A DNA stretch of 53,120 nucleotides from Bacteroidota bacterium (GTDB taxonomy: Bacteria > Bacteroidota > Ignavibacteria > Ignavibacteriales > Melioribacteraceae), in contig JAHJUE010000033.1 in NCBI GenBank assembly GCA_018829205.1, forward strand, positions 1 through 53,120. The letters run 5' to 3'. The position numbers and the translations under genes are program-made. Position 1 is the stretch's first letter. Each line of letters begins with the position of its first letter. The notes under the pieces were generated by a model. It had not been told where the DNA came from. It saw only the letters and a program-made list of their open reading frames with translations, and made no database searches. Below, in pieces: positions 2,521 to 38,899 of the stretch.

Positions 2521-3870
2521 TTAATCAATAATTCGATTTTTCATTTTTTCAAATGATATAAATAATAAGAAGATATAAATTAAAAACTGGAAACTGCCCA
2601 CACCTACAAACCATGCTTCAAATTGAGCGTTAACAATTAAAGCAATAAGGAAAGCAAAAGGAAGATTATATATATTATTCGAAATAATGTGCTGCTGAAT
2701 AATATTTTTATTTAAATGGTGATTCGTACCTTTTTTATTCCCCTTTATTTTTCTTTCAGATAAAAAGTAATAGAACAAGAAAATACACGGCAATAGAAAT
2801 AGTATTAAACCAATAATACCGGTCTCTTCAATTAGAGCGAGAAAGCTATTCAGTTTTTCTCTTACAAATATTCCATTATCATAATGATTTCCCGCGGCGT
2901 CATTTTTAATGGCGGGATTACTGATTCCGTATCCTAATCCTGTAAATCCGCCGGATATAGCGGCTTCAAAAGAAGATTCCCAATAAGTTAATCTGCTTCC
3001 TAAAATTGAACCAGAGCCTTTCGCCATCCAAGATTCCGCTGAATTTTTAAAGCCGGGGTTAAATACACTTAAAGAGATTAGGGAAATTATTATCATAGCA
3101 GCGGTTATAAAAAAGTATTTATAATTTATTAAGAGAGCCAAAATTATACACATAATAAAAAAGGATAATATTGAAGCGCGGGAATGGGTAATTATAAGAA
3201 GATATAAATTAGCAGCGAGTATAAATGAATAAAATATTAATAAATATTTATTATAGATATTTTTTTTTGATTTATAATTAAAATAATATTTTAATATTTG
3301 TTCAAATATTGAAGGAGAAGTAAAAAGTACAATGGCGCCGAGAGTATTCTGATGTGAGACAAAGCCCATAAATCCTTTTGAGTTTCCCCCTGTCCAGGCA
3401 TTTTGAGGTATATCGAATAATAATGAAATTATTGAGGCAATTAGGACAATTATATTCAGCGGTATTAGGCAGCCGAAATATGTATCCGATATTTTGTTCC
3501 AAAATAATGAGGCAAAATAAGTACCTATTATTAAAAACAATAAATAGAAGCTTCTTAACAATGTAATATGGGGATGTAATGACCAAATTGAAGTTAGCAC
3601 TGACCATACCGGGAATAACAAAACTAAATATAAAATACTTTTGGCAATCCGGCTTAAATTGAATTTGCTAATATCATTAAGGATTACATTTAAGTCATTA
3701 TAAACTGAAATTAAACCCGCAAAAATAATTATTAAAAATCCAAGCGGAGTTAGAACAAACAGATATTCAAAACCGGGGAAGGCTTTTGCAAAAGTACCAA
3801 GAAGCGATAGGAAAAAGACAACTTTTAGTAAGGTATTTTTCTTATAAGACGTATAAAAATTAATATTCAA
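2521..3870 (-). CDS. O-antigen ligase family membrane protein (WaaL/Wzy-like)
   Basis: A 449-residue polytopic membrane protein with about ten hydrophobic segments and a long soluble loop around residues 280-345. The end of that loop (NSFLALIEETGIIGL) and an earlier SRAS motif are typical of the O-antigen ligase/polymerase superfamily. It would either join finished polysaccharide to its lipid or protein acceptor, or polymerise repeat units. Because a second Wzy-like gene lies at 22902-24092, ligase is the better guess here. The only sensible start is TTG at 3868-3870, overlapping the upstream gene by 11 bp. This suggests translational coupling. Confidence 0.72.
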   Translation of the reverse strand: MNINFYTSYKKNTLLKVVFFLSLLGTFAKAFPGFEYLFVLTPLGFLIIIFAGLISVYNDLNVILNDISKFNLSRIAKSILYLVLLFPVWSVLTSIWSLHPHITLLRSFYLLFLIIGTYFASLFWNKISDTYFGCLIPLNIIVLIASIISLLFDIPQNAWTGGNSKGFMGFVSHQNTLGAIVLFTSPSIFEQILKYYFNYKSKKNIYNKYLLIFYSFILAANLYLLIITHSRASILSFFIMCIILALLINYKYFFITAAMIIISLISLSVFNPGFKNSAESWMAKGSGSILGSRLTYWESSFEAAISGGFTGLGYGISNPAIKNDAAGNHYDNGIFVREKLNSFLALIEETGIIGLILFLLPCIFLFYYFLSERKIKGNKKGTNHHLNKNIIQQHIISNNIYNLPFAFLIALIVNAQFEAWFVGVGSFQFLIYIFLLFISFEKMKNRIID

Positions 3871-5348: not shown

Positions 5349-6980
5349 TTAAAGACCATAAGAAATTAAAAACGAGAACTCATTGAAATTAGTATTGATA
5401 TAATTTCCGTTAATAATTTCTTCCTCTGTTTTATTAATATTATAATTTATTTTTAAATAAAGACTATGCATAAATTCATACGATAATTGAAAACCATATA
5501 AAGAATAATACTTTTTTAATCCCCATAAAAAATTCTGATTTGGTTTATATCTTTCGCCGCCGGGAACAGCTAATTCACCTTTTCTTATATAGCTGTAATA
5601 TAAATCGAAATTTAAACCGCGAATTATTCTTTTTCTTAATTTTAGATATAATTGATCGCTATTTTCACCAATCCAATGACCAAGCTGATAACCGAAATTA
5701 TTATATGTCTGTGCCGGATCAATATGAGAATATACGAAGGGCTGAATTTTCGTATATTCAGCAATTAATTCACTTTCGGGAATTAGTGGATCAATTGTAT
5801 GAAAACCAATATTATAAGCGATTGCGGAAGGATTATCAGGATTACTAATTGTAAGCTCATCAATAAAAACAGATCCGTAAAATTTCGTCTGTATAGAATA
5901 ATTTTTATACCACAAAGACCCGAATATTTGAGCGTTGCCGGCCCTCTCATCAGGTGCTGTTAAATAATGATCCGCTAAACGAAAAGGAATTATTGGAATT
6001 AAATATATTGGTTCCAGTTTATCGCTATAGATAACGGATTCGCCGATTGAAAAATTAAAGTTTTTTAAGGGGGTAAATGAAAACATATGGGTAACAAAAT
6101 ATTTTTCAACATTGGAAAAATGATTTCGGCCTGGATTGATTCTAATTGTTGAAGAATCCAATATCTGCGAATCTAGATAACCGTGTATGTATGAAAACCT
6201 GAACCATTCAACGGGATTAAATTCCAGTTTAAGATAAGGAAACGAAGGCGCTTTTGAGGACATAATTATATTACCGCTTTCACCGGTGCCGTAATAGTTA
6301 AAATCCTTGCCAATGGTAATATTGCCCCAATCCCATGAATAAGTTAAATTCGCGCGGACATAATCAAAATCTAAACTGCCGTCGCTATTATTCTTTTTAT
6401 ATCCATATCCTGTTTCATTTGTGAAATCACGTGAAGCATCATAATAATCTCCGCCTGCCCTATTATCATATAACACTATATCAAAACCAAAATTATCATT
6501 AATATTACCGAACAATTTAAGTCCGTTTGATCTTAATGTAGAATTTTTTCCGTCTGAATAACTAATTGAATAATTAATTACGGGATCCACCGATAAATTA
6601 AAACCGGGAGACTCAAAATTAAATAACCTAAAGCGGCAGTTATTATTAAAACCGAAAGCCAAATTATTATGTTTAATCTGGCTGGTATCAGGAAGCTGCT
6701 TTAACATTTCAGAAGAAAATTCTTTTAAGTAGAAATCCAACTCGGTTTTTTCAAGATGTGAAACTTGGATTTTATCCCGGAGTGCGTTTAACTTGCCTGC
6801 AATATATAAACGTGAGAAAGGCAAAATTTCTTCGTTAGTAGAAATTAGGCCTTTATTTGACATCCTGTTAAGGTAATTATAAACGCTGTTTGTTACCGGT
6901 TCATAATTAACCTGTGAATACAAAGGGATGGCCGCAGAAAGAAATATTATTAATATATAGAAGAATTTTAATAGTTTCAT
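5349..6980 (-). CDS. Wzi-like capsule assembly outer-membrane protein
   Basis: A 543-residue protein with a clear Sec signal peptide (MKLLKFFYILIIFLSAAIPLYSQ, trimmed after about residue 22) and then a mostly beta-strand-like pattern of alternating polar and aromatic residues ending in an aromatic-rich strand. This fits an outer-membrane beta barrel. The early segment on loops and turns (YNYLNRMSNKGL) and the overall length match the capsule assembly Wzi family found beside polysaccharide loci in the Bacteroidota/Chlorobi group. It would hold or organise surface polysaccharide at the outer membrane. It ends 11 bases before the PglF-like gene in the shared minus-strand order. The family assignment is by pattern and context. 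Confidence 0.72.
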   Translation of the reverse strand: MKLLKFFYILIIFLSAAIPLYSQVNYEPVTNSVYNYLNRMSNKGLISTNEEILPFSRLYIAGKLNALRDKIQVSHLEKTELDFYLKEFSSEMLKQLPDTSQIKHNNLAFGFNNNCRFRLFNFESPGFNLSVDPVINYSISYSDGKNSTLRSNGLKLFGNINDNFGFDIVLYDNRAGGDYYDASRDFTNETGYGYKKNNSDGSLDFDYVRANLTYSWDWGNITIGKDFNYYGTGESGNIIMSSKAPSFPYLKLEFNPVEWFRFSYIHGYLDSQILDSSTIRINPGRNHFSNVEKYFVTHMFSFTPLKNFNFSIGESVIYSDKLEPIYLIPIIPFRLADHYLTAPDERAGNAQIFGSLWYKNYSIQTKFYGSVFIDELTISNPDNPSAIAYNIGFHTIDPLIPESELIAEYTKIQPFVYSHIDPAQTYNNFGYQLGHWIGENSDQLYLKLRKRIIRGLNFDLYYSYIRKGELAVPGGERYKPNQNFLWGLKKYYSLYGFQLSYEFMHSLYLKINYNINKTEEEIINGNYINTNFNEFSFLISYGL

Positions 6981-6991
6981 TAGGTGTTATT

Positions 6992-8890
6992 TTAAGCGGG
7001 TTTTACCAATTTCAGATTGGTATTATTAGAAACGTATTCAGGCACTAATTGACGAAGGATTAATCTGATATCATTACCCTCTTCATTTGAATGAAAAATT
7101 AAATTTTCAATAAGCTCGTTTAATTGGGGATGCGTGAAATTAGAAGCGTTTACCGCTTCAAAAATCTTTTCATGCTCTGTTTTTTTATACTCCTCACCTT
7201 CAAGAAATAACTCCTCGAACAATTTTTCACCAGGGCGCAGGCCGGTAATTTCAATATCAATATCTTCATTTAATCTTAACCCGGAAAGTCTTATCATATC
7301 TTTTGCCAGATCGACAATTTTAACAGGTTCACCCATATCGAGCACAAATATTTCCCCGCCTGAATTTAATATGGAAGCCTGAAGAACTAATTGAACCGAT
7401 TCGGGGATTGTCATAAAATATCTCATAATATCGGGATGGGTGATAGTTAAAGGGCCGCCGTCTTTTAACTGGCGGTAGAATGTTCTAATTACACTCCCCC
7501 TGCTTCCCAATACATTTCCGAATCTTACAGCTGAAAAAGCTCTTCCGTAATTTTTTGCCGCTTGAAGGACTATCATTTCAGCGACACGTTTTGTAGCGCC
7601 CATAACGTTTGTAGGATTAACGGCTTTGTCAGATGAAATAAGAATAAATTTATCCACATTAAATTTTACGGAAACATCAACCATATTCTTTGTACCCATA
7701 ATATTATTTAATACAGCTTCAATGGGATTATTTTCCATCAAGGGTACATGTTTATGAGCGGCTGCGTGAAAAACTATCTGCGGTTTATATTTTGAAAAAA
7801 TTCTTGAAAGGCCTTCCGAATCTTTAATATCAACAATTTTTGTTATAATGCTATTAATACGGCAATGTTTCTTAAGCTCCATATCAATTTCGAAAATTGA
7901 ATTTTCACCGTGACCGGTTATTACAATCTGTGCAGGATTAAATCTGCAAACCTGGCGGCATATTTCACTTCCTATTGAACCTCCGGCACCGGAGATTAGC
8001 ACTACCTTTTCTTTAATAGAATCGGCGACTTTATCAAAGTCAATTTCGACTAATTCTCTTCTTAATAAATCTTCTACCTGTACCCTTCTTAATAAATTAA
8101 TTTTTATATCTTTATCGAGAATTTTATCAATAGGAGGAAGCGTTAATACCTCAACATCAAGTTCGGAACAAATTGAATGAATTTCCCTTATTTTTTTACC
8201 AGAAACCATGGGCAAGGCGATTATTATTTTCTGTGCTTTTAATTTAGTTGAAATTTCCGATAAATTAGAAATAGGTCCCAGTATTGGAATACCTTTTATT
8301 TTCAAACCAATTTTAGCTTCGTCATCATCGACAAAAGCTACAACCTTACCATAATCTTTATGGTAAAGTATTTTATTTTGTGTCTGTACTCCGGCATCTC
8401 CGGCGCCGATAATTATCGTATGAATTTGAGGGTTATACCTGTCAAGTCTGTTTTTTGAAGACTCCGCTAGACGCAGACTAAAGCGCGCGGAAGCAACTAT
8501 AATAATTGAAATAAGACTGTCAAGAATCGGCAAGGAATAAGGCATGCCTTCGACTACATCTGTAATAAAATAATTAAACAAATAAAACGCGAATATCTCA
8601 AATAAGATTACAGTAATACAAGCGGCTATTATTCTAGCTAATTCATCAATACTTGCAGACTGCCAGTACCGGTTATAAAACCCGAATTGATAAAATATTA
8701 CAAATTTTAAAACGGTAAGGGACAATGTTATAAATAAAAGATTCTCAAAAGTAATTAGGTTAGATATATTACCATCAGTTCTAATTAACAAGGCTATATA
8801 TGGAGACAACAATAAAATAATTAAGTCAAATGCAATAAAATGCCTGTTGCGGATTTTTCTTGTTATTTTAAATATTTTATTTATCGGCAT
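6992..8890 (-). CDS. pglF: PglF/WbpM-type UDP-GlcNAc 4,6-dehydratase
   Basis: A 632-residue membrane-anchored nucleotide-sugar dehydratase. Residues about 1-140 hold four hydrophobic spans. A CoA-binding-like Rossmann fold (GAGDAG near 163) follows, then the catalytic NAD-binding domain with ISGAGGSIGSE near residue 298. The active site has SDKA and MGATK, the M-x-x-x-K variant that is known for PglF/WbpM/FlaA1 in place of Y-x-x-x-K. It should convert UDP-GlcNAc to the 4-keto-6-deoxy sugar. It overlaps the aminotransferase gene by 14 bp, which matches the PglF-PglE step order of UDP-bacillosamine synthesis. It might also feed the legionaminate branch. Confidence 0.88.
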   Translation of the reverse strand: MPINKIFKITRKIRNRHFIAFDLIILLLSPYIALLIRTDGNISNLITFENLLFITLSLTVLKFVIFYQFGFYNRYWQSASIDELARIIAACITVILFEIFAFYLFNYFITDVVEGMPYSLPILDSLISIIIVASARFSLRLAESSKNRLDRYNPQIHTIIIGAGDAGVQTQNKILYHKDYGKVVAFVDDDEAKIGLKIKGIPILGPISNLSEISTKLKAQKIIIALPMVSGKKIREIHSICSELDVEVLTLPPIDKILDKDIKINLLRRVQVEDLLRRELVEIDFDKVADSIKEKVVLISGAGGSIGSEICRQVCRFNPAQIVITGHGENSIFEIDMELKKHCRINSIITKIVDIKDSEGLSRIFSKYKPQIVFHAAAHKHVPLMENNPIEAVLNNIMGTKNMVDVSVKFNVDKFILISSDKAVNPTNVMGATKRVAEMIVLQAAKNYGRAFSAVRFGNVLGSRGSVIRTFYRQLKDGGPLTITHPDIMRYFMTIPESVQLVLQASILNSGGEIFVLDMGEPVKIVDLAKDMIRLSGLRLNEDIDIEITGLRPGEKLFEELFLEGEEYKKTEHEKIFEAVNASNFTHPQLNELIENLIFHSNEEGNDIRLILRQLVPEYVSNNTNLKLVKPA

Positions 8891-10160
8891 TTTGACCTCT
8901 TGTTAAAATTGAAAAAATTATACCAACGATCCTAGCCAAATCGTCTTCTGATAAATTTGAACCTGAAGGAAGACATAAACCGTCTTCAAACAACTTTTCA
9001 GAAGTACCGTTTGTGAAATTCAAGGCATTTTGGAAAACCGGTTGTTTATGCATTGGTTTCCAAAGCGGACGGGATTCAATATTATATTTCTCTAATTCAA
9101 GTCTAATATTTTCTCTAGAAACTCCATTTGTTTTATTAGAATCTACCAAAAAAGTAGTAAGCCATCTATTTGAAAAATGACCGACCGGTTCATCAAGAAA
9201 AGTTATTCCATCAAACTTAGTAAACTGATCTTTATAAAAATCATAATTTGCTCTTCGCTGCTCTACCCTTTTATCGATTACTTTCATTTGTCCACGCCCG
9301 ATACCGGCAACTATATTACTCATTCTATAATTATAACCGATTTGAGAATGCTGATAATGCGGAGCGTTATCGCGTGCTTGGGTAGCGAGGAATCTTGCTT
9401 TAGTAACGAATTCTTCTTTATTAGAAATTAACGCACCACCACCGGAAGTTGTAATAATTTTATTTCCGTTAAATGATAGAATGCCAATATCACTGAAACC
9501 ACCGACATGTTCTCCCAGTGAAATAATCTTTTCACTTGGGTTTAATTCAATTTTATTTTCTTCTGCTTTTAGTTTAGCTAAATCTTCTGAATTAATATTG
9601 ATTTCACGGGACAGGCCATTTTTAGATATGTTTCGCATTTCACGGGATAAATATCTTGATCCAAGTGCTTCGGCGGCATCTTCAATTAAGGGAATTTCAT
9701 ATTTATTTGCTACTTCCATTATATCATTAATGAGAGCAGGCATGCCGTAGAGGTGAACATAAATAATTGCTTTTGGTTCCTTACCTTTTGCTATGCGATC
9801 TTTGACAGCGTCTTCAAGAATGTTTGGATCCATGTTCCAAGTTTTGTTTTCTGAATCTATAAAAATTGGGACGGCTCCTTGATAGGCGATGGGATTAGCA
9901 GTAGCAGAAAAGGTCAAGCTTTGACAGATTACTTCATCATCTTGTTTTACACCAAGCATAATTAGAGCAAGATGAAGTGCAGCTGTACCGGAACTTAAAG
10001 CTGCGGCATGCTTAACGCCTGTATAATTTTGTAAATCTTCTTCAAAACCGTTTACATTTGGACCGAGCGGTGCTATCCAATTTGTATCAAAAGCTTGGTT
10101 TACAAAGTTAAGTTCTTCACCGCCCATGTGGGGGGAAGAGAGCCAGATTTTAGGATTCAT
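8877..10160 (-). CDS. pglE: PglE-like DegT/DnrJ/EryC1 sugar aminotransferase with an in-frame insertion
   Basis: A PLP-dependent aminotransferase of 427 residues, predicted to turn the UDP-4-keto-6-deoxy sugar into the UDP-4-amino sugar. The PLP lysine is in SFNGNKIITTSGGG, at about residue 234 from the chosen start. I chose ATG 10158-10160 (MNPKIWLSSPHMGG) because the longer frame starts with TTG and would overlap the SDR gene. Between LGSRY and GFSDIGILSF, where relatives have a short turn, there are about 45 extra hydrophilic residues (about 172-218, DNA near 9507-9647). The DNA of this insert holds a palindrome, CCCAGTGAAA at 9514-9523 against TTTTCACTTGGG at 9529-9540. The reading frame is intact. 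Confidence 0.87.
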   Translation of the reverse strand: MNPKIWLSSPHMGGEELNFVNQAFDTNWIAPLGPNVNGFEEDLQNYTGVKHAAALSSGTAALHLALIMLGVKQDDEVICQSLTFSATANPIAYQGAVPIFIDSENKTWNMDPNILEDAVKDRIAKGKEPKAIIYVHLYGMPALINDIMEVANKYEIPLIEDAAEALGSRYLSREMRNISKNGLSREININSEDLAKLKAEENKIELNPSEKIISLGEHVGGFSDIGILSFNGNKIITTSGGGALISNKEEFVTKARFLATQARDNAPHYQHSQIGYNYRMSNIVAGIGRGQMKVIDKRVEQRRANYDFYKDQFTKFDGITFLDEPVGHFSNRWLTTFLVDSNKTNGVSRENIRLELEKYNIESRPLWKPMHKQPVFQNALNFTNGTSEKLFEDGLCLPSGSNLSEDDLARIVGIIFSILTRGQNADK

Positions 10161-10176
10161 AAAATATCTCTTAAAA

Positions 10177-10932
10177 TTATATACAAGAAAAACCACCATC
10201 AATTATATAGTTCGAACCAGTAATCCATTTGCTTCTAGAAGAAAGAAGAAATGCAGTAAAGTTCGCAACGTCTTCAGGAGTTCCATATCCTAATGGATAT
10301 CTATTTTCATCTTCAATAATTTTAGAACCCGAAATAACATCTTGTGCACCATCTAACATTTCAGTTCTAACCATACCCGGAGAAATACTGTTTACTCTTA
10401 TTCTGTTTTTGGCTAATTCGATAGAAATTGTCTTAACAATACCAAATAATGCTGATTTAGATGAAGAATAAGCTGCTAAGCCAACTGCAGACTTTGTAAT
10501 GCCACTTATGGATGAAATAAATACTATTGAAGAATCATTATTAATTTTTTTCTTAGAATATAAATTCTGAGTTAGTTCGATTGGCGCAAAGTAATTAATG
10601 TCATATATTAAGTTCAAATTTTTTCGTGAAAGGACTTTGAATGGAATATATTTTAAGATACCAGCAGAATGAACTATACCATCTATACTTGGTGTAGTAT
10701 CTACTATATTTTTTATAAAGCCATTATCTGTTAAATCACCTGAATATGCAATAACTTTTTGGGGAGCTTTGTTTTTGATTTCGTTCAATTTCTCAGTTCT
10801 GCGGCCACAAATAACCAAATTCGAATTAAACTTCAGTAACAATTCGCAAATCGACTTACCAATACCAGAGGTAGCACCGGTAATTAAAAATGTTTTATTG
10901 CTTATTTCTAAAAAATCATTATTCATTCTCAT
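10177..10932 (-). CDS. Short-chain dehydrogenase/reductase (FabG-like)
   Basis: A classical SDR of 251 residues with TGATSGIG at about 18-25 (NAD(P) binding), an NxAG-like HSAG near 88, and the catalytic pair Y155-x-x-x-K159 in YSSSK, preceded by SS. It ends with the usual ITGSNYIIDGG. It overlaps the ACP gene by 4 bp (ATGA). Together with the neighbouring ACP and KASIII genes it suggests reduction of a 3-oxoacyl-ACP to a 3-hydroxyacyl-ACP used to decorate an amino sugar. That substrate is inferred from neighbours; FabG-like SDRs have broad chemistry, so a sugar reductase role is possible. Confidence 0.82.
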   Translation of the reverse strand: MRMNNDFLEISNKTFLITGATSGIGKSICELLLKFNSNLVICGRRTEKLNEIKNKAPQKVIAYSGDLTDNGFIKNIVDTTPSIDGIVHSAGILKYIPFKVLSRKNLNLIYDINYFAPIELTQNLYSKKKINNDSSIVFISSISGITKSAVGLAAYSSSKSALFGIVKTISIELAKNRIRVNSISPGMVRTEMLDGAQDVISGSKIIEDENRYPLGYGTPEDVANFTAFLLSSRSKWITGSNYIIDGGFSCI

Positions 10933-11168
10933 TTGTTAGATTTACTTTTAATCAATTCAAATAATTCATTTACTGTTTTACAAGAAATTAATTCCTCACC
11001 AGTTAAAACCACATCATATTCATTATCTATCATTGCAAGTAAAGTCATCGCCGCTAATGAGTCCCATTGTTCTAAATTATTTTGAAAATCTAAATCAGCA
11101 TCTACAGAATTAGGCTCTACATCTTCAATTGCATATTCAAATTTTCTTAAGAAGTCATTAAGTTCCAC
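10929..11168 (-). CDS. Acyl carrier protein, dedicated to the polysaccharide locus
   Basis: A small acidic protein of 79 residues with the phosphopantetheine attachment motif WDSL (Ser at about 37) followed by a hydrophobic helix. It would carry an acyl thioester between the KASIII upstream and the SDR downstream. The start is a GTG at 11166-11168 with a strong TAGGAGAG ribosome-binding site just upstream. The sequence is divergent from a housekeeping AcpP (which has a DSL in a conserved LGADSLD context), so this looks like a specialised copy. Confidence 0.88.
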   Translation of the reverse strand: MELNDFLRKFEYAIEDVEPNSVDADLDFQNNLEQWDSLAAMTLLAMIDNEYDVVLTGEELISCKTVNELFELIKSKSNK

Positions 11169-11189
11169 TTTTCTCTCCTAAAATTATTA

Positions 11190-12155
11190 TTAATAATATA
11201 TAATACAACCACCCCATGAGTAACCAACACCAAAACCAACTAACATTACTTTATCATTTTTCTTTATTCTATTATTTTTATAAGCATCATTTAAAGCTAA
11301 GGGAATAGTTGAAGATACAGTATTACCAACATTTTCAATGAAGTAATAAAATTTATTTTCACTGATTTTAAGTTTTTTTCTAAGATTTTCTAACATAAAC
11401 TTATTGGCCTGATGAAAAATAAACAGATCAATATCTTCGATTGATAGTTTTGATTTATCCAAAATATTTTTTACAACTAGCGGTACTTTTTCTAAAGTAA
11501 AACTAAATATTTTTGCCCCATTCATGAATAAATAATCATCTTCCGTATTATTTTTTTTAAATTTGAGCCCGCCATTCTTTACTATTAGATTATTAGATCC
11601 TCCTCCATCCGTCCCATAATCAAAATCTTCTATTTTTCCATCTCCATTTGAAATTAATGAAGCGGTAGCAGCATCTCCGAAAATGGATCTATTACTTTTA
11701 TCATCAAATTTAATATGCTTTGAGTATGCCTCCGAAGTTATTAGCAAAACATTGTTTGCTTGATTTGATTGAATTAAAGCTTTGGACAAACCCAAACCAT
11801 AAATATAGCCTGAACATCCAAGATTAAAATCAATTGCACCAATATTTTGTTTTAGACCTAACCTATGCTGAACGACGCATGCAGTAGTTGGTAAATAATA
11901 GTCAGGACTTTGAGTACACAAAATTATGTAATCAATTTCATTTTTACTAACATTATATTCTTCAAATAATTTTAATGAGGCATTAACAGACATATCTGAA
12001 ACTGTTTCATTTTCAGAGCAGATATGCCTTTTAGAAATACCAAGTTTGTTAGTTATTCTTTCAATTGTCCATTCAGGAAACTGTTTTGATAAATCATCAT
12101 TTGTTAGTACATTTTCCGGTAAGTAATAGCTAATAGCTTTAATTGAAATACCCAT
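11190..12155 (-). CDS. 3-oxoacyl-ACP synthase III-like condensing enzyme
   Basis: A thiolase-fold enzyme of 321 residues with the full KASIII triad: Cys114 in LGCSGYIYG, His248 in FHQAN and Asn278 in VGNT. It could condense a short acyl-CoA with malonyl-ACP to give a 3-oxoacyl-ACP, or transfer an acyl group. An AGAGGTATAA ribosome-binding site sits before the ATG at 12153-12155. A 97-base gap separates it from the PglD-like gene. It is placed inside a bacillosamine-type pathway rather than in a fatty-acid operon, with ACP and SDR genes directly following. This points to a tailor-made acyl group for the polysaccharide. Confidence 0.88.
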   Translation of the reverse strand: MGISIKAISYYLPENVLTNDDLSKQFPEWTIERITNKLGISKRHICSENETVSDMSVNASLKLFEEYNVSKNEIDYIILCTQSPDYYLPTTACVVQHRLGLKQNIGAIDFNLGCSGYIYGLGLSKALIQSNQANNVLLITSEAYSKHIKFDDKSNRSIFGDAATASLISNGDGKIEDFDYGTDGGGSNNLIVKNGGLKFKKNNTEDDYLFMNGAKIFSFTLEKVPLVVKNILDKSKLSIEDIDLFIFHQANKFMLENLRKKLKISENKFYYFIENVGNTVSSTIPLALNDAYKNNRIKKNDKVMLVGFGVGYSWGGCIIYY

Positions 12156-12252
12156 TTATACCTCTAATTTAATAACAGAATATTATAATGGTAAGAATTT
12201 TGATATTAGTATAACTTTATTTTCATTTAGGAGAGACCAATAAAATCGTATC

Positions 12253-12897
12253 CTACTCATGAAATTTAATTGGTTTAGCAGGAATTCCAACTGCTGTGCA
12301 GTCCGAAGGAATATTTTTCGCAACAACTGCTCCTGCTCCAATTATTGTTCGGGCACCAATAGTAACTAGATTAATAATCTTTGCACCAGTACCAACATAA
12401 ACCGAATTCTCAATTTTCACTTCACCGGAAATATTAACTGAAGGCATAAAGGCTGAATAGTCATCGATAATAGTATCATGACCAACAGTGCAACTTAAGT
12501 TTAGAATGACATGTTTACCAATACTTATATTTGTAGTAATAACACAACCAGCAGTGATTATAGAACCCTCACCTATTTTTACGTCAGAATCACCAATTTG
12601 AACATTCGGATGAACTATAACAGGGTATTTAATCTTATCGTTTATTATCTGATTCAAAATTTTTGTTTTTGTGGATGGGTTACCTATCGATAATACTAAA
12701 TACAACCCTTCATTGACCATATTGAGTTCAGCAATACCTCCTAGTACAGGATAATTATTAATCATTTTATTTTTCTCAATACCATCATCAAAAAAGCCAA
12801 TAATTTCCCACTCTTGATCGACTTTGTTAATTTGTTCAATCAACATAGCAACTTCTCTACCAAAGCCGCCTGCACCAAATATTGCAATTTTTTTCAT
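12253..12897 (-). CDS. pglD: PglD/NeuD-family sugar N-acyltransferase
   Basis: 214 residues from the chosen start. The N-terminal Rossmann-like part has IFGAGGFGREV, and the C-terminal part is a left-handed beta-helix of hexapeptide repeats (IGEGSIITAGCVI and onward). The likely catalytic His is in TVGHDTI. Family members acylate the 4-amino group of UDP-4-amino sugars in the cytoplasm, usually from acetyl-CoA. I take ATG 12895-12897 (MKKIAIFG) because GAGGTGAG lies just upstream and because the longer reading would overlap the PglC-like gene. With the KASIII-ACP-SDR genes next to it, an acyl-ACP donor is conceivable. Confidence 0.86.
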   Translation of the reverse strand: MKKIAIFGAGGFGREVAMLIEQINKVDQEWEIIGFFDDGIEKNKMINNYPVLGGIAELNMVNEGLYLVLSIGNPSTKTKILNQIINDKIKYPVIVHPNVQIGDSDVKIGEGSIITAGCVITTNISIGKHVILNLSCTVGHDTIIDDYSAFMPSVNISGEVKIENSVYVGTGAKIINLVTIGARTIIGAGAVVAKNIPSDCTAVGIPAKPIKFHE

Positions 12898-12907
12898 TTT
12901 ACTCACC

Positions 12908-13516
12908 TCAGTTTTTACCATTAAATTTCGGAGCCGTCGCCATTCCTTGTGAATTAATACCCTCTCTTTTTAATGTTTTAGCAATTGTTAGAATAATAAT
13001 TTTAATATCCACTAGAAAAGAAATATTATCAACGTACCAAACATCCAGATCAAATTTTTCTTTCCATGATATAGCATTCCTTCCATTTACCTGTGCCCAG
13101 CCGGTTATGCCGGGTTTTACTTCATGTCTTCTTTTTTGTTTTTCATTGTATAACGGTAAATATTCTATTAATAATGGTCTTGGACCTATTAAAGACATAT
13201 CTCCTTTAATTACATTTAATAACTGTGGGAGTTCATCTATAGAAAGTTTTCTAATTAATTTGCCTATAGTTGTTAAGCGCTTTTCATCCGGAAGAAGATT
13301 ACCATCAACATCTTTATTTTCTTTCATTGTCTTAAATTTTATAATATTAAAAATCTTTTCATCTTTGCCGGGACGAGATTGGACGAAAAAAACTTTACCG
13401 CTATTTGCCATAAATAAAGAAAAAATAACAACTAAAAGTAAAGGTAATGTAATTATAAAAACAAAAAAAGAAATCAGTAAATCAAAAAGTCTTTTAAGAT
13501 AGTTTTTATAAATCAT
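12908..13516 (-). CDS. pglC: PglC-like phosphoglycosyl transferase (bacterial sugar transferase)
   Basis: 202 residues. The enzyme should place a phospho-sugar, probably a bacillosamine-type residue, on undecaprenyl phosphate to begin the repeat unit. An N-terminal re-entrant hydrophobic segment (LLISFFVFIITLPLLLVVI) is followed by the PF02397 core: FKTM, the Asp-Glu dyad in SIDELPQL, GDMSLIGPRP and PGITGWAQVNGRNAISW. It ends in FNGKN, just as Campylobacter PglC does from memory. I chose ATG 13514-13516, one base after the preceding stop; the longer frame starts with TTG and overlaps by 20 bp. It matches PglC length well. Confidence 0.9.
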   Translation of the reverse strand: MIYKNYLKRLFDLLISFFVFIITLPLLLVVIFSLFMANSGKVFFVQSRPGKDEKIFNIIKFKTMKENKDVDGNLLPDEKRLTTIGKLIRKLSIDELPQLLNVIKGDMSLIGPRPLLIEYLPLYNEKQKRRHEVKPGITGWAQVNGRNAISWKEKFDLDVWYVDNISFLVDIKIIILTIAKTLKREGINSQGMATAPKFNGKN

Positions 13517-13517
13517 T

Positions 13518-14735
13518 TCAGAATATTTTTTGTTCAAAATGATTCATAATAATGTTGTATGAATGGGCTGCGGTAAAATTTTGGATGAAGTATTTATATC
13601 CATGATCGCCCATCTGTTTACATAAGCTTTTGTCTTTTAGCAGCTTCTCAATATTCTTATTGAAGTCATTCAAGTTACCGCTTTGAGACCAAAAACCGAA
13701 ATTATTCTTTTCAGCAAGCCTACCGATATCAGTTACAATATCAGTTGCCAATAAGACCGGTTTCTCATTCTCCAAATAAGATAAAAGTCTAGAAGGAAAG
13801 TTTGGAATTGTAAATCGTTTATCGAGAAAAATTAGACCGACATCGGCTACTTTAACAATATTATCATATTCAGTTTTGGGAAGTTGATTTAGAATGAGAC
13901 AATTATTTGAGTTATTCTGATTGGACCAATGAAGTAACTTGCTAAACTCTGTGCCAGAACCGACAATTATTAAAAACAAATCGTCATTTTGTTTATTTGA
14001 GTCAAGCACTTGAATAAGAAAATCTATTCCTTGAGGAATGCCAAGGTTACCACCATATAAAAGAATAAGTCTATTCTCCGGTATGTTAAATTTATTTTTT
14101 ATTTTCTCTAGTTGTTGTGGAGAAACGGCACTATTTACAGGAGCCAGACTATTAGGATTTACCTCAACTTTATTCGGAGACAAACTTTTATTGTTCTTCA
14201 ATAAATATTGAACGTTTGCCGGTGACATACAACCTATGTAATCAGAAATTTCATAAAGGACTTTTTCTTTTTTACGAAAATAGTTATGCATTAAACTATT
14301 TTTTCTAATCAAACCCATATCAACAGCATTTTGGGGAAAAATATCTTTTAGTAGAAGATAAGATTTTGTACTATTTCTTTTTTTGATATATTTAACTGAT
14401 TTTTCGAAAGTTATCGGCGGGGTTGAATAAATTATTAAATCAAATTTAATCTCACTTAAATATTTCACTATTCCCCAAAGGAACATAAAATCTAAAAGCA
14501 AAGTTGAGATGCCCTTTTCAATTGTACTGCATTTCTGAATATTTAGCCATTTCATTTTTATTATAGTAATTCCATCAATCCTCAAGAAACTTGATTTCTT
14601 TTTGAGTCTTCTTTCATTTGGGCTAATTATAAAAACATTATGCCCTTCATCTCTGAACTTACGCATTAGATCATTATAGATTCCACGTTCGTTAATATCG
14701 TCTGAAATTACTAATGTTAGGAAGAGAATGTTCAT
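13518..14735 (-). CDS. WbuB-like GT4 glycosyltransferase
   Basis: A GT-B enzyme of 405 residues. It has LLLKDIFPQNAVDMGLI near residues 147-163 and LLYGGNLGIPQGIDFL at the start of the donor domain, patterns I associate with WbuB-type L-FucNAc transferases. The gene lies between the PglC-like initiator and the L-FucNAc synthesis genes. That context supports the second step of repeat-unit assembly, with L-FucNAc or its amidino derivative added to the first sugar. The typical GT4 EX7E region is weak here (FPSRLLSYLENEKPVL). Donor identity is inference. Confidence 0.8.
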   Translation of the reverse strand: MNILFLTLVISDDINERGIYNDLMRKFRDEGHNVFIISPNERRLKKKSSFLRIDGITIIKMKWLNIQKCSTIEKGISTLLLDFMFLWGIVKYLSEIKFDLIIYSTPPITFEKSVKYIKKRNSTKSYLLLKDIFPQNAVDMGLIRKNSLMHNYFRKKEKVLYEISDYIGCMSPANVQYLLKNNKSLSPNKVEVNPNSLAPVNSAVSPQQLEKIKNKFNIPENRLILLYGGNLGIPQGIDFLIQVLDSNKQNDDLFLIIVGSGTEFSKLLHWSNQNNSNNCLILNQLPKTEYDNIVKVADVGLIFLDKRFTIPNFPSRLLSYLENEKPVLLATDIVTDIGRLAEKNNFGFWSQSGNLNDFNKNIEKLLKDKSLCKQMGDHGYKYFIQNFTAAHSYNIIMNHFEQKIF

Positions 14736-14857: not shown

Positions 14858-15988
14858 TTATTTTGACCAAACGACACGATTAACGTAATCCGTATAAGAT
14901 AAAATAATTCTTAAAACTTTATCCGATACGTTTGGCATCGAATAGTCAGATACTGGTCTTAATGTACGTTCATTATTTCTTTTTTGAGTTTCAAGAACTT
15001 TAATGGTTTGCAATATTCGATCTTCATTAAACCCTGTGAACATAACAGAAGCTTCTTCAAATGCTTCGGGGCGTTCATGATTTTCACGTAAATTTATAGC
15101 TGGGAAATTTAGGATTGAAGATTCTTCCGAGATTGTTCCGCTATCGGAAATGGAAACGAAAGCATTGAATTGCAAATTGTTGTAATCTGAAAAACCAAGA
15201 GGTTTTAATAATATTATTTTCTCATCAAGAATGGAGTTCTTTTTATCAATCATTTTACGAGTACGCGGGTGTGTAGAAACAATAATTGGAAATTGATATT
15301 TCTTGACTAGTAGATTTAAAATATTTATAAATTTGTCGAAATTAATGGAATCTATATTTTCCTCACGATGCGCAGAAACAAGGAAATAGCCTTCATGGTT
15401 CAGCTTTAAGCGATCAAGGATAGTGGAAGATTTTATTTTGGGCATATAGTAATTAATGACTTCGAACATAGGACTGCCGGTTTTAATAATTCTATCGTTT
15501 GGAAATCCTTCTTTCAATAAATATTCACGGGCAATACTGCTATATGTGAGATTAATATCACTTACATGATCAACTATCTTTCGATTTATTTCTTCGGGAA
15601 CTCTTTGATCAAAACAACGATTACCGGCTTCCATGTGGAATACCGGGATTTTCCTTCTTTTGGCAGGGATAGAAGCTAGACAACTATTGGTATCACCTAA
15701 AATCAGAAGCGCATCAGGTGATTCGCTTTCTAATATTGGATCTATTTTAATAAAAATTTGACCAATAGTTTCGGAAGCGTTTTTGCCTGCTGCTTCGAGA
15801 AAATAATCGGGTTTGCGCAATTCTAAATCTTCAAAGAAAATTTGATTAAGCTCGTAATCATAATTTTGACCGGTATGAACAAGGATGTGTTCAATTGCTT
15901 CTGATTGATCGAGTTTGGCTATAACTCTGGATAAACGAATTATTTCTGGGCGTGTACCGACAACGGTGAGGACTTTTAATCTATTCAT
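14858..15988 (-). CDS. fnlC: FnlC/CapG-type UDP-sugar 2-epimerase (UDP-L-FucNAc synthesis)
   Basis: A GT-B-fold epimerase of 376 residues of the non-hydrolysing UDP-GlcNAc 2-epimerase family. It has VVGTRPEIIRLSRVI at the N-terminus, ILGDTNS, HMEAGNRCFDQRVPEEINR and SAHREENID, the sub-pattern that separates FnlC/CapG/WbjD from housekeeping WecB. It should catalyse the last step, C-2 epimerisation to UDP-L-FucNAc. The FnlB and FnlA genes follow in the upstream direction (16473 and 17609), completing the pathway, with a four-helix-bundle gene wedged between fnlB and fnlC. Confidence 0.88.
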   Translation of the reverse strand: MNRLKVLTVVGTRPEIIRLSRVIAKLDQSEAIEHILVHTGQNYDYELNQIFFEDLELRKPDYFLEAAGKNASETIGQIFIKIDPILESESPDALLILGDTNSCLASIPAKRRKIPVFHMEAGNRCFDQRVPEEINRKIVDHVSDINLTYSSIAREYLLKEGFPNDRIIKTGSPMFEVINYYMPKIKSSTILDRLKLNHEGYFLVSAHREENIDSINFDKFINILNLLVKKYQFPIIVSTHPRTRKMIDKKNSILDEKIILLKPLGFSDYNNLQFNAFVSISDSGTISEESSILNFPAINLRENHERPEAFEEASVMFTGFNEDRILQTIKVLETQKRNNERTLRPVSDYSMPNVSDKVLRIILSYTDYVNRVVWSK

Positions 15989-16010: not shown

Positions 16011-16479
16011 AAGATAAAAGTAAAAAGTTAAAAGAAAAAGACAAAAGAATAAAAACAAAATTCAAAAGACAAAAGTAAAAAAAAAGATAAAGAATTAAAA
16101 AAATTAGTTTGAGCGTGTTTTATGTACTATCGATCCTAAAATATTTTTTAGCTCTGAGGATTCATTTAGTAAAAATTTTAACTCATCATTTAGTAAATTA
16201 TTCTCATTTATACTTTCGATTATTCTTAACCAATAATTTGATTCACGCATTTCTCTTAATGATATTCGAACCTTATTATTAAAGTCAGCTTTTGATGAAC
16301 CAGCTTGGGATTCTTCGTAATTTGCGCCACTTGAAGTTGAACTTTTTGCTAATTGGTATTTAATAACTTTATACTCCGCGGAGTTTGGTAGTCGTCTAAT
16401 AAATTTTAAGCAATTAACTGCAAAATTAAAAAGTCTTTCATTTAGATCATTAATCATAACTTCTTTTTACTTTTATCTT
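16011..16479. repeat. 17-bp perfect inverted repeat bracketing a four-helix-bundle gene
   Basis: AAGATAAAAGTAAAAAG at 16011-16027 is the exact reverse complement of CTTTTTACTTTTATCTT at 16463-16479. The interior holds the gene at 16104-16457 and more words of the same kind (aaaagacaaaagtaaaa, about 16030-16085). The right arm includes the stop codon of fnlB and supplies its last residues (EDKR then stop). An RNA copy could close into one stem enclosing the small gene. Chance similarity of A-rich DNA is a worry, but 17 exact bases plus the partial extension is more than expected. Confidence 0.6.
16104..16457 (-). CDS. Four-helix-bundle protein (23S rRNA intervening-sequence/S23 type)
   Basis: A helical protein of 117 residues with the family layout: a first helix (LNERLFNFAVNCLKFIRRLP), then LAKSSTSSGANYEESQAGSS in place of the typical QIRRASxSIxxNIAEG, and two further amphipathic helices. 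Such proteins were first seen in 23S rRNA intervening sequences and are common as orphan genes in the FCB group; the molecular role is not established. It separates fnlB and fnlC, which are otherwise a tight trio, and lies inside a 17-bp perfect inverted repeat. Related copies are at 19568-19927 (broken) and 41694-42065. Confidence 0.85.
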   Translation of the reverse strand: MINDLNERLFNFAVNCLKFIRRLPNSAEYKVIKYQLAKSSTSSGANYEESQAGSSKADFNNKVRISLREMRESNYWLRIIESINENNLLNDELKFLLNESSELKNILGSIVHKTRSN

Positions 16480-17606
16480 TTGTCTTCAATTCTCACTTCT
16501 TCAAAGTAAGTGTCGGGTTTATCGGGATTGAAGATTTCGTTGGCCCAAAATAGTGTGATCAGATCTGTATCCCCAGTGTTTGTGATATTATGGGTATAGC
16601 CAGGAGGAATATCGATTGGAGTTATTTTATCTCCGGTTACTTCATATTTTATTATAGAATCGCCTTGTATTTGCCGGAAACAGATTTCCGCTTTACCTTT
16701 AATTACAATAAATTTTTCTGTTTTTGTGTGGTGATAGTGATTTCCTCGTGTAATCCCGGGTTTTGTGGTGGAGACAAAAAATTGTCCAAATTTTTGGGAT
16801 TTTATAAGTTCAGTTAGGTCTCCCCTTTCATCCCGGTTGGTCTTTAATTCATAGGAAAAATTGTCTTCATTAAGATAGCTCAAATAAGTCGAATATAACT
16901 TCTTAGTAAACTCATCAGATACATCTGGTAGTAAGAGGTTTTTTCTGCTTTCTTTAAAAGAAGATATTAGCTCAGCTAATTCACCTAACTTGATTTCATA
17001 AAATGGTTGGACATATAATCTCGATTCAGGACTATGCTGTGGTTTATTATTAATAATACGAATAATGTTTTCAGTAATATCATCGATATATATAAGCTTA
17101 AGGTTAGCATCAGGATCATTAATTTTAATTGGAAGTTCTTTTGCGATATTATTACAAAAAGTTGCTACTACGGAATTATAATTTGGTCGACACCATTTAC
17201 CGAAGACATTAGTTAAACTATATATATAAACTTCATTATCTGTCTTTTTCGCAAAATCGATGAGATATTCTTCGGCAAGCAGCTTACTTTTACCATAGGG
17301 GTTATCCAATTCAGCTTGTGTTGAAGAAGCGAAAATTATTGGTTTATTGAGTTGGTTTGATTGCAAAATATTTACAATAGTTTCAGTTAACCCAAAGTTG
17401 ACCTCTTTATATTCAGAAATATTTTCAGGCCGATTACTTCCCGCAAGATGTACTATCCAATCACACTCGATTATCCCCCTATCTAAATCTTTTATATCGT
17501 TGTCTTTATCAAACTCAAGAAGGTCATATCCTTCTTTCTCATTTAAAATTGTAACAAGATTTTTGCCTATAAAACCATTGGATCCGGTGATGAGAATTTT
17601 TTGCAT
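16473..17606 (-). CDS. fnlB: FnlB/CapF-type bifunctional epimerase-reductase
   Basis: A 377-residue fusion of an N-terminal SDR domain (ITGSNGFIGKN at 5-15) and a C-terminal cupin (GITRGNHYHHTKTEKFIVIKG, whose His and Glu side chains should bind the metal), the signature architecture of CapF/FnlB. It performs the C-3 epimerisation and C-4 reduction on the way to UDP-L-FucNAc. The C-terminus after PDTYFEEV carries a short extra tail, RIEDKR, encoded by the inverted repeat at 16463-16486. This looks like a read-in of repeat DNA and should be harmless. It sits 2 bases from fnlA. Confidence 0.9.
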   Translation of the reverse strand: MQKILITGSNGFIGKNLVTILNEKEGYDLLEFDKDNDIKDLDRGIIECDWIVHLAGSNRPENISEYKEVNFGLTETIVNILQSNQLNKPIIFASSTQAELDNPYGKSKLLAEEYLIDFAKKTDNEVYIYSLTNVFGKWCRPNYNSVVATFCNNIAKELPIKINDPDANLKLIYIDDITENIIRIINNKPQHSPESRLYVQPFYEIKLGELAELISSFKESRKNLLLPDVSDEFTKKLYSTYLSYLNEDNFSYELKTNRDERGDLTELIKSQKFGQFFVSTTKPGITRGNHYHHTKTEKFIVIKGKAEICFRQIQGDSIIKYEVTGDKITPIDIPPGYTHNITNTGDTDLITLFWANEIFNPDKPDTYFEEVRIEDKR

Positions 17607-17608
17607 AT

Positions 17609-18631
17609 TTACTTACCTTTCCAATTTATTAATTCTTTTTTTACAAATGGGAGTTCTAAAAGCATTCTCTTTAATTCTGTCTTAGAAAGTCTATAAGTAT
17701 TATGTGAATTATAATGTTTCAGTCCGTTTTCGGGGAGAACACCTTCAGAGAAGTATTTACTGTAATTTAAGTCCCTATCATCGGGGGATACCTTATAGTA
17801 GTCACCTAAATCTTCAGCAACAAGACACTCTTCATCTGTTAAAAGAGATTCGAAGAGCTTTTCACCATGCCTAGTACCTATTGTTTGAATCTCACTTTTA
17901 GAATCGAATATTTCTAGTAATGTTTCGGCAACATCTCTTACTGTAGAAGCGGGAGCTTTTTGGACAAAAAGATCACCACTGGTTCCATGTTCAAAGGCAT
18001 AAAGAACTAATTCAACCGCATTTTCAAGTGACATCATGAACCGGGTCATTTCAGGATTTGTAATCGTTATCGGTTTATTTCCTTTAATTTGTTGTATGAA
18101 AAGTGGTATGACTGATCCGCGCGATGCCAAAACATTGCCGTACCTAGTGCCAATAAAAACAGTTTTATCTGTAAGTCTTGCCTTTGCTACGAAAACTTTT
18201 TCCATTAATGCTTTTGAAATACCCATCGCATTAATAGGATAAACTGCTTTATCGGTGCTGAGGCAGATAACTTTTTTAACGCCCATTTTGATTGCTGCAT
18301 TTAATACATTATCAGTACCAATAACATTTGTTTCGGTAGCTTCCATCGGAAAAAATTCACTAGATGGAACTTGCTTTAATGCAGCGGCATGGAAGACAAA
18401 ATCTACTCCTTCAAGCGCCCTTTCAATGGACTCATATCTACGAACATCACCTAGAAAAAATTTGATACGCGAATCATTATAAAATTTTCGCATATCGTCC
18501 TGTTTTTTTTCATCACGACTGAAGATTCGAATTTCTTTTATTCCGACGTCATCATTTAGGAAACGATTAAGTACTGCATTACCGAATGAGCCGGTGCCTC
18601 CGGTGATTAAGAGTATTTGATTAGAAAACAT
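17609..18631 (-). CDS. fnlA: FnlA/CapE-type UDP-GlcNAc 4,6-dehydratase/5-epimerase
   Basis: 340 residues, soluble. It has the Rossmann motif TGGTGSFGNAV at about 8-18 and an active site with STDKAVYP and MGISK, the M-x-x-x-K form found in CapE/FnlA/PseB. It should start UDP-L-FucNAc synthesis from UDP-GlcNAc by dehydration and C-5 epimerisation. PseB shares these features, but the CapF and CapG partners next to it decide for FnlA. It lies 14 bases from the HisF-like gene upstream, in the same transcript direction. Confidence 0.9.
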   Translation of the reverse strand: MFSNQILLITGGTGSFGNAVLNRFLNDDVGIKEIRIFSRDEKKQDDMRKFYNDSRIKFFLGDVRRYESIERALEGVDFVFHAAALKQVPSSEFFPMEATETNVIGTDNVLNAAIKMGVKKVICLSTDKAVYPINAMGISKALMEKVFVAKARLTDKTVFIGTRYGNVLASRGSVIPLFIQQIKGNKPITITNPEMTRFMMSLENAVELVLYAFEHGTSGDLFVQKAPASTVRDVAETLLEIFDSKSEIQTIGTRHGEKLFESLLTDEECLVAEDLGDYYKVSPDDRDLNYSKYFSEGVLPENGLKHYNSHNTYRLSKTELKRMLLELPFVKKELINWKGK

Positions 18632-18645
18632 TTTTTTCCTTAAAA

Positions 18646-19419
18646 TTAATGAACATTATCTACTAACATTTCTTTTTCACTTTTGGTCGGATAATTGATT
18701 AATACTGCTCTATATTTACCTTTAAAAACAAATAAACTCCCCGCAGCAACACCAATAATCTTGTATTCGTCAATAACCAATTTAATGTCATCAAAACTAC
18801 CCGCTCCACCAAGTACGGTCATAGGCAAATTTGTAGAGTCTCTCATCATTTTTATTAATCCTAAATCGTAACCTTTCATTGCCCCATCATTATCAATTGA
18901 ATTAATTACAATTTCACCAGCACCGTAATCCTCAAAGTCACGGATCAATTCAAACGGAGATTTTGAGTTACTTCTTGTACCGTTATGTGTAAATACTTCA
19001 TACTTATTGCCAAACATTTTCTTTTTGACATCCATTACTACAACAACACTTTGATTACCAACTTCTTCAGCAATTTCAGCTACTATAGAAGGACGTTGAA
19101 TAGCGATTGAACTTATTGCAATTTTTTCAACACCTAGTCCAAAAATTTTCTGAGCTTGGCCAACAGTTTTTATCCCCCCACCATAACATAACGGCATACG
19201 ACATTCAGCTGCTACATTTTCAATCATTTTATAATTTGGTTCATTATTTTGAACTGTTGCATCAATATCAATCAGCATCAACTCATCGGCTTCTTTTTCG
19301 TTGAAAATTTTAACAGCGTTAATGGGATCACCAACATATTTATGATCTTTGAATTTGACTGTTTTTGTCAATCCTTTGTTATGGACGAGGAGACATGGGA
19401 TTATTCGGGGGTGGAGCAT
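18646..19419 (-). CDS. wbuZ: WbuZ-type HisF paralogue (sugar amidation module 1)
   Basis: A (beta/alpha)8 barrel of 257 residues related to the HisF cyclase, but starting IIPCLLVHNKGLTKT where true HisF has a catalytic Asp (IIPCLDV). The second Asp site (VVVMDVKKK) is kept. There is no other histidine gene nearby. In O-antigen loci such HisF/HisH pairs pass ammonia to a WbpG/WbuX-like synthetase that turns an N-acetyl into an acetamidino group. Its partners are at 19993-20607 and 20604-21749. A broken four-helix-bundle gene separates it from its HisH partner. Confidence 0.85.
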   Translation of the reverse strand: MLHPRIIPCLLVHNKGLTKTVKFKDHKYVGDPINAVKIFNEKEADELMLIDIDATVQNNEPNYKMIENVAAECRMPLCYGGGIKTVGQAQKIFGLGVEKIAISSIAIQRPSIVAEIAEEVGNQSVVVVMDVKKKMFGNKYEVFTHNGTRSNSKSPFELIRDFEDYGAGEIVINSIDNDGAMKGYDLGLIKMMRDSTNLPMTVLGGAGSFDDIKLVIDEYKIIGVAAGSLFVFKGKYRAVLINYPTKSEKEMLVDNVH

Positions 19420-19567
19420 TCGTTTTTTAAGTTTATCGATGAATATTGATTATTTCTTTTTGTTTGAGTGATACTAAGACTCGAGAGAAATTACTAAGAT
19501 GAGAGGTTGTGAAGTTTAGCAAATTTCAATTTACTAAACTTATTATCACCTGAACCTCTAAGAAAAA

Positions 19568-19927
19568 CTAGAAACAAAACTTGCTAGAATTCATTTCCAT
19601 AGAATTTAGCATTGCAATTATTTCTTCATATTCTTTGTCTAGTTCATCAAATGTTTTCTGATCTATGTATTTACAAGCTAAGGAAAAGTCGAGCCAACTT
19701 TGAGTTTCTGATGCTTCTTGCTGTACATCGGTCAACTTATTCTTGAATACTAATTCATATTTTCTTTTTCGCAAAGATTCAGAGATATTTGAACAAACTG
19801 ACCTAGATGCTCTTCTTATTTGATCTGTTAGAGAATATTTTTCTTCCTTTGGAAAACTTTTACTAATCTCAAAAATTTTCATTGCAGCAACAAAAGCTTA
19901 TTGATAGACCTTGATGTCGCGAAAGTG
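19568..19927 (-). pseudogene. Four-helix-bundle (23S-IVS type) gene broken by a premature stop
   Basis: The open part (104 residues, ATG at 19880-19882) begins in the middle of the first helix: MKIFEISKSFPKEEKYSLTD, then QIRRASRSVCSNISES as in the family. Reading on upstream in the same frame gives AAVFA (towards the ATG), a TAA at 19898-19900, and beyond it DIKVYQ, the usual N-terminal segment of these proteins. No in-frame ATG follows upstream. So a nonsense change (probably AAA to TAA) and loss of the start have cut off the first helix. A shortened protein might still be made. It lies between the HisH- and HisF-like genes. Confidence 0.7.
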
Positions 19928-19992
19928 ATTTAACTTAATAGACTTACCCATCAACTAAACTTCTTATCTTCATAACTTCTAAATTTCTTCTT

Positions 19993-21749: not shown

Positions 21750-21759
21750 AGCGACCTGA

Positions 21760-31661: not shown

Positions 31662-31662
31662 A

Positions 31663-34927: not shown

Positions 34928-34939
34928 AACAAATGGATA

Positions 34940-36082: not shown

Positions 36083-36084
36083 TC

Positions 36085-37089: not shown

Positions 37090-37091
37090 AA

Positions 37092-38896: not shown

Positions 38897-38899
38897 TAA

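Follow-up and report, generated by a model that had tools for sequence, protein, structure and literature searches.

The stretch of DNA analysed here, referred to as the window, comprises 53,120 nucleotides of contig JAHJUE010000033.1 (assembly GCA_018829205.1) from a Bacteroidota bacterium of the family Melioribacteraceae. Its minus strand carries a run of sugar genes in the order FnlA-FnlB-FnlC-GT-PglC-PglD-KAS-ACP-SDR-PglE-PglF (GT, glycosyltransferase), and within this run lie genes for a 3-ketoacyl-acyl carrier protein synthase of type III (KASIII, or KAS), an acyl carrier protein (ACP) and a short-chain dehydrogenase/reductase (SDR). A first-pass annotation of the sequence had described this trio as a KASIII with Cys-His-Asn, an ACP with its Ser and an SDR with Tyr-x-x-x-Lys between PglD-like and PglE-like genes, and both the residues and the coordinates were confirmed (Table 1). 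The genes are closely packed, with intergenic gaps of 97 nucleotides (PglD-KAS), 21 nucleotides (KAS-ACP) and 16 nucleotides (SDR-PglE), an ATGA in which the stop codon of the ACP gene is shared with the start codon of the SDR gene, and AGGAGAG preceding the GTG start of the ACP gene. The arrangement of the trio in the sugar-gene run is real and not due to chance. Scans for promoter-like sites (57 versus 62.4 in shuffles, no excess) and terminator-like sites (8 versus 6.1 in shuffles) were uninformative.

All three proteins retain their catalytic residues. Cys114, His248 and Asn278 of the KASIII were invariant in 15/15 aligned rows and the triad was kept in 82/82 rows of a larger alignment, Ser37 of the ACP was kept in 77/77 rows, and in the SDR Ser141 was kept in 74/74 rows while Asn113, Tyr155 and Lys159 were each kept in 73/74 (the window sequence is counted throughout). 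The triad and a PRK09352 score above the cut-off place the first protein in the KASIII/FabH superfamily, and against the fabH model TIGR00747 it scored 273.5 bits, below the cut-off of 292.1; it is proposed to condense acyl-CoA with malonyl-ACP. The ACP carries its 4'-phosphopantetheine serine inside a PP-binding domain and is not of the housekeeping type (TIGR00517, 21.4 bits versus a cut-off of 70.45). The SDR is a classical member of its family for which a FabG-like action is proposed.

The trio is additional to the housekeeping fatty-acid genes, as the same genome encodes a separate FabH (C13:14600-15556) and ACP (C13:12000-12200) about 2.4 kb apart. A third KASIII of this genome, 38% identical, lies on another contig (C12:102491-103453; L052:8471-9457) among genes for an acyltransferase, a patatin, a PAP2 protein and a family-2 glycosyltransferase, with no PglD-type call nearby.

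Table 1. Genes of the sugar-gene run and their positions in the window
Feature	Position	Strand	Evidence
PglF-type UDP-GlcNAc 4,6-dehydratase, long form with CoA_binding_3 part	6992..8890	-	PF02719 1.7e-117
PglE/LegC-type DegT aminotransferase	8877..10160 (ATG at 10160)	-	PF01041 3.2e-91; TIGR04181 381 bits, below cut-off 420
SDR, proposed 3-oxoacyl-ACP reductase	10177..10932	-	PF13561 (adh_short_C2) 1.1e-44; N113, S141, Y155, K159
Dedicated acyl carrier protein, GTG start	10929..11168	-	PF00550 (PP-binding) 1.3e-7, 32.2 bits versus cut-off 20.8; Ser37
KASIII-type ketosynthase	11190..12155	-	ACP_syn_III_C 4e-32; PRK09352 289 bits versus cut-off 249; C114-H248-N278
PglD-like left-handed beta-helix sugar N-acyltransferase	12253..12897 (ATG at 12897)	-	PglD_N 2.5e-16; TIGR03570 203 bits versus cut-off 160.8; G-H-D motif
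PglC-like phosphosugar transferase, proposed repeat starter	12908..13537	-	PF02397 2.8e-62
Family-4 glycosyltransferase (WbuB-type judging from its context), proposed to add an L-FucNAc-type sugar	13518..14735	-	PF00534 1.5e-17; context as described in PMC6519341
FnlC-like UDP-sugar 2-epimerase	14858..15988	-	PF02350 8.9e-93; wecB model 237 bits versus cut-off 210
117-aa frame between FnlB-like and FnlC-like genes	16104-16457		
FnlB-like reductase	16473..17606	-	NF047837 442 bits, below cut-off 500
FnlA-like 4,6-dehydratase/5-epimerase	17609..18631	-	TIGR04130 511 bits, below cut-off 730

Profile searches with the PglE-like protein began at 10166, two codons upstream of its ATG.

Recurrence of the KASIII branch beside sugar genes

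At a threshold of 1e-20 the KASIII query matched 391/395 genomes of the phylum, and a copy at 50% identity or above was present in 18/395 (own genome included). The next phylum genome stood at 43% and the remaining matches listed at 30-42%. Within the family, 2/79 genomes held such a copy (the own genome and G713, at 51%), and a third genome passed 1e-60 at merely 39% identity. The KASIII branch is patchily distributed in polysaccharide loci.

A scan of named genomes matched at least 591 stretches, and 80 loci were kept, the titles being mostly of Bacteroidota with a few of Spirochaetia, Anaerolineae, Geobacteraceae and Terriglobia; the locus of Flavobacterium psychrophilum itself was absent among these 80 (of at least 591 matches). 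In the genus to which G202 belongs, 27/299 genomes matched at 1e-85. Neighbours were counted within a radius of 4 kb, at the 59 loci having that much sequence on both sides of the KAS gene. An ACP was found near the KAS in 59/59 loci, an SDR in 49/59, PglD-type and DegT genes in 31/59 each, a second KAS in 30/59 and a PglC-type gene in 10/59; over all kept loci, a second KAS lay within 4 kb in 37/80. At control loci built around housekeeping FabH, PglD-type, DegT, PglC-type and second KAS genes were each found in 0/20, and an SDR lay within 4 kb of the KAS in 19/20. The ACP count of 0/20 at these controls is no evidence, as the profile derives from the ACPs of cassettes and misses the housekeeping ACP. 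Since KAS and SDR genes are also near each other in an ordinary fab cluster, it is the neighbourhood of sugar genes and the distinctness of the KAS branch that are informative, rather than the trio itself. An ACP, an SDR, an aminotransferase and a PglD-type gene recur beside this branch across loci, which supports the first-pass annotation. At the level of sequence the genes and their order are established, as are the intactness of the catalytic residues and the fact that the set recurs. The cassette makes unusual acyl groups of surface sugars predictable from sequence in Bacteroidota, in which the branch is common (at least 591 stretches matched).

Four loci (L039, L043, L044 and L045) have the same KAS branch beside hexapeptide transferase-like genes, three of them with an SDR and none with a DegT call; there the branch perhaps serves another sugar or another use.

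The closest arrangement was found in Pedobacter sp. Leaf194 (L152), where a nearly identical run reads FnlA-FnlB-FnlC-GT-PglC-PglD-ACP-SDR-KAS-PglE-PglF and the PglD is 61-62% identical. A metagenome-assembled Pedobacter genome (L149) has PglC-PglD-ACP-SDR-KAS-DegT, with a PglD 64% identical. Plasmid pBGF3 of Burkholderia glumae (NZ_DQ996271.1) carries vioA, a KASIII (45.5% identical), an ACP, an SDR and a PglD-like gene with G-H-D consecutively, as in the window. Unlike the window, the plasmid set adjoins flagellin genes and fliD, and a second KAS-like reading, split across two overlapping frames, lies between its ACP and SDR.

Published precedents and the proposed pathway

The PglF-PglE-PglD-PglC series of Campylobacter jejuni consists of four enzymes of the types seen in the window, with the roles proposed for them here, and differs in that an acetyl group is transferred there, yielding N,N'-diacetylbacillosamine. 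The roles of PglE, PglF and PglD are also described in PMC6519341. The same paper describes the O-polysaccharide locus of F. psychrophilum, which contains fnl genes, pglE, pglF, a PglC homologue named as the repeat starter, and, within wfpA-G, the genes wfpC-wfpG, encoding ketosynthases WfpC and WfpE, ACP WfpD, reductase WfpF and the PglD homologue WfpG. WfpG was predicted, not assayed, to move 3,5-dihydroxyhexanoyl from the ACP onto UDP-Qui2NAc4N, and the presence of this acyl group on Qui2NAc4N was solved by nuclear magnetic resonance (PMC6519341). Judged by gene content against that published description, the window shares with the Wfp-type R-group cassette a KAS, an ACP and a ketoreductase that adjoin a homologue of PglD within a locus for Qui2NAc4N. 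F. psychrophilum has two different ketosynthases and a C6 dihydroxy acid on C-4, whereas the window run has a single KAS and a C4 acid is predicted. The idea behind the annotation is sound in kind and already published for F. psychrophilum, and the window cassette is a good further example rather than a new system, predictive rather than surprising.

In Pseudomonas syringae, vioS/vioR/acp/vioB were proposed to account for the 3-hydroxybutanoyl amide of viosamine; vioR and vioB mutants lacked the modified viosamine, and vioS and acp were assigned by homology (PMC3927599). By its description, this island of seven genes shares the KASIII, of which it has one, the ACP, the reductase and the acyltransferase with the window. 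Its product is dTDP-viosamine destined for the chain end on flagellin (PMC3927599), while the window sugar is proposed to be the first in a polysaccharide. In Acinetobacter, D-QuiNAc4NHb is assigned to a qhbCB/gdr module in 22/237 K loci (PMC9676051; qhb genes also in PMC3628348); this assignment, made in A. baumannii, is to the same sugar as predicted for the window, and the QhbA/WeeI acyltransferases (WeeI, 4m9c) belong to the same family as the PglD-like protein.

We consider it likely that the trio acts as a mini fatty-acid synthase whose hydroxyacyl product is moved by the PglD-like enzyme to UDP-Qui2NAc4N, with loading by the PglC-like enzyme to follow. Malonyl-ACP, assumed to be loaded by housekeeping FabD, would be joined with acetyl-CoA by the KASIII to give acetoacetyl-ACP, which the SDR would reduce to 3-hydroxybutanoyl-ACP. 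The PglF- and PglE-like enzymes would make UDP-Qui2NAc4N, the 4-amino group of which would be acylated by the PglD-like enzyme to give UDP-QuiNAc4NHb. The PglC-like enzyme would then transfer QuiNAc4NHb phosphate to the lipid carrier and so begin the repeat. An L-FucNAc-type sugar would be added by the family-4 transferase. We infer all substrates, the ACP donor step, the chain length and the first position in the repeat. The annotated claim that the PglD-like enzyme places an ACP-bound hydroxyacyl group at C-4 of a sugar that starts each repeat through the PglC-like enzyme is partly supported, by the gene anatomy, the recurring gene link and near-identical published proposals, and stands as a prediction in its donor step, chain length and PglC role.

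As the window run has one ketosynthase, 3-hydroxybutanoyl is predicted, leading to UDP-QuiNAc4NHb; it is most likely, being the simplest product of one ketosynthase and one reductase. In published systems a C6 acid accompanies two ketosynthases in F. psychrophilum (PMC6519341), and a C4 acid accompanies a single one in P. syringae (PMC3927599). In a tree of cassette-linked PglDs alone, the window PglD grouped with three PglDs from one-KAS loci (support 98, starred), although at one of these, L149, the sequence ahead of PglD amounts to no more than 691 bases. A second KAS may go unseen where contigs are short. On one hypothesis the number of KAS genes would set the acyl length. A broader version, which we regard as speculative, holds that a mobile KAS-ACP-ketoreductase cassette is swapped among Bacteroidota polysaccharide loci, one KAS giving 3-hydroxybutanoyl and two giving 3,5-dihydroxyhexanoyl. 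If true, surface antigens would be tuned through a minimal, readable polyketide-like code, and a CoA donor in one PglD could give way to an ACP donor in its relatives, or the reverse. Comparing loci with one versus two ketosynthases, and PglDs with versus without a cassette, allows direct tests of chain length and of the choice of donor.

The acyl donor and alternative explanations

The PglD-like protein belongs to the PglD/NeuD family by its PglD_N domain, its TIGR03570 score above the cut-off and its catalytic histidine (His140 counted from the ATG, His142 in the numbering used for the analysis). Its predicted model has a mean confidence (pLDDT) of 96.7 and was matched best by VioB, PglB, PerB and PglD (Z 23.6-31.2). 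AntD (3vbj), a beta-helix N-acyltransferase with bound 3-hydroxybutyryl-CoA, matched further down (Z 20.6). LpxD, which uses acyl-ACP, was not among the 50 rows compared, which excludes nothing. The residue before the catalytic histidine is G in this protein, D in the second PglD-like protein of the window, PerB and PglB, and S, A and E in VioB, WeeI and Pcryo_0637, respectively; of the five solved members, PerB, PglB, VioB and Pcryo_0637 are titled acetyltransferases and WeeI is not. With respect to N,N'-diacetylbacillosamine, the motif of the window protein is unlike that of the D-H-D acetyl types, yet close cassette-free relatives exist.

PglDs were defined as cassette-linked when an ACP call (for three rows, a KAS alone) lay within 5 kb. 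The tree was built from 75 of 90 rows, near-identical Flavobacterium rows having been reduced to 3 and frames above 300 aa and duplicates removed earlier. It placed the window PglD among 25 rows that form a starred set, of which 16 were cassette-linked and 9 were not. Another 8 rows form a separate group (support 91, not starred), one of them cassette-linked by position; this group has D or E before the histidine in all 8 and includes the second PglD-like protein of the window and the D-H-D PglDs beside PglC-/DegT-type genes at L121, L133, L134 and L135. A glycine before the histidine was also tried as a marker of an ACP donor, and with only 4 independent pairs on starred branches no conclusion was drawn.

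Several observations weigh against the proposed pathway. The SDR scored 112-132 bits against curated 3-oxoacyl-ACP reductase models, below their FabG cut-offs of 222-339 (among the 25 best of 232 families), and an SDR call was absent within 4 kb in 13/80 loci, some of them on short contigs. The closest solved structures to the PglD model are mostly CoA-dependent acetyltransferases. Glycine precedes the histidine in 36/39 cassette-linked PglDs and also in 22/36 cassette-free ones, so that it is no proof of donor, and the two groups were sampled differently, most cassette-linked rows coming from loci picked by KAS. Three PglDs 56-59% identical to that of the window (L096, L097 and L098) lack any call for an ACP, a KAS or an SDR over the 16-kb stretches covered, and this KAS branch is absent from their genomes (best E 2.5e-45 to 1.7e-55); that of L096 sits in the same Fnl-PglC-PglD-PglE-PglF context without a cassette call. 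Under a strict rule, alignment positions 4, 28 and 86 alone separated four cassette-linked PglDs from the three cassette-free ones, and none is near the active site. The Acinetobacter QuiNAc4NHb module is listed as qhbCB/gdr only, the term 'acyl carrier' being absent from the main text of PMC9676051. Finally, the number of KAS genes clustered weakly on the PglD tree, with 10 changes, a value as low being reached in 21 and 23 of 500 shuffles.

The cassette-free relatives in three genomes, the lack of a clean active-site difference and the predominance of acetyltransferases among the nearest solved structures all favour a different reading, in which the PglD-like protein uses acetyl-CoA in the ordinary way to form N,N'-diacetylbacillosamine and the acyl group of the trio is used elsewhere or not at all. 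We regard this as unlikely because the trio, with its intact and conserved residues, sits between pglD and pglE in one tight run, and because the D-H-D PglDs, among them the second one of the window, form another group in the tree. Slightly less likely still is a longer or differently primed product, such as 3,5-dihydroxyhexanoyl, for which one KAS would act twice or be joined by the C12 KAS. The C6 acid made with two ketosynthases in F. psychrophilum (PMC6519341), the second KAS at 37/80 loci and the existence of that further KAS would fit such a product; however, the run itself has one KAS, and the C12 enzyme lies among genes of other kinds, away from any PglD-type call. A legionaminic-type gene set with its own PglD-like protein (33-39 kb) could in principle receive the hydroxyacyl group, as in nonulosonic acids with N-7 hydroxybutanoyl, and Leg5Ac7(3-hydroxybutanoyl) was predicted from Acinetobacter gene modules (PMC9676051). 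This destination is highly improbable, as the set lies about 25 kb from the trio and its acyltransferase (37092-37730) carries the D-H-D motif also found in PerB and PglB.

Transfer from the ACP by the window PglD is the weak step of the pathway that we favour, and it is held at moderate confidence because cassette-free relatives exist at 56-59% identity and no clean active-site difference was found. Either such relatives use hydroxybutanoyl-CoA or another donor, or the PglD sequence is uninformative on the donor. An alternative acyl supply was looked for at six cassette-free loci by inspecting the first 60 residues of each reading frame. Two frames between PglD and the aminotransferase (L097 8138-9094 and L101 7224-8224) appeared by eye to be short and membrane-like.

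Other polysaccharide genes in the window

The legionaminic-type genes (33165-39874) encode a LegC-family aminotransferase (535 bits versus a cut-off of 420), a NeuB-type synthase, a NeuC-type epimerase, the D-H-D PglD-like protein and a cytidylyltransferase-like protein. The window also encodes a Wzi-type capsule assembly protein (5349-6980), two Wzy_C proteins (2521-3870 and 22902-24092) and a flippase-type protein (26504-27787), and on account of these the polysaccharide is possibly capsular and not an O-antigen.

Two N-acetyl sugar amidotransferases of the WbuX family were found (18646-21782 and 30423-33175), each with HisH-/HisF-like genes by eye. The first set adjoins the Fnl genes and the second is near the legionaminic-type genes, and two amidino sugars may be made from them. 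A WbuX-like set also lies beside Fnl genes at locus L050.

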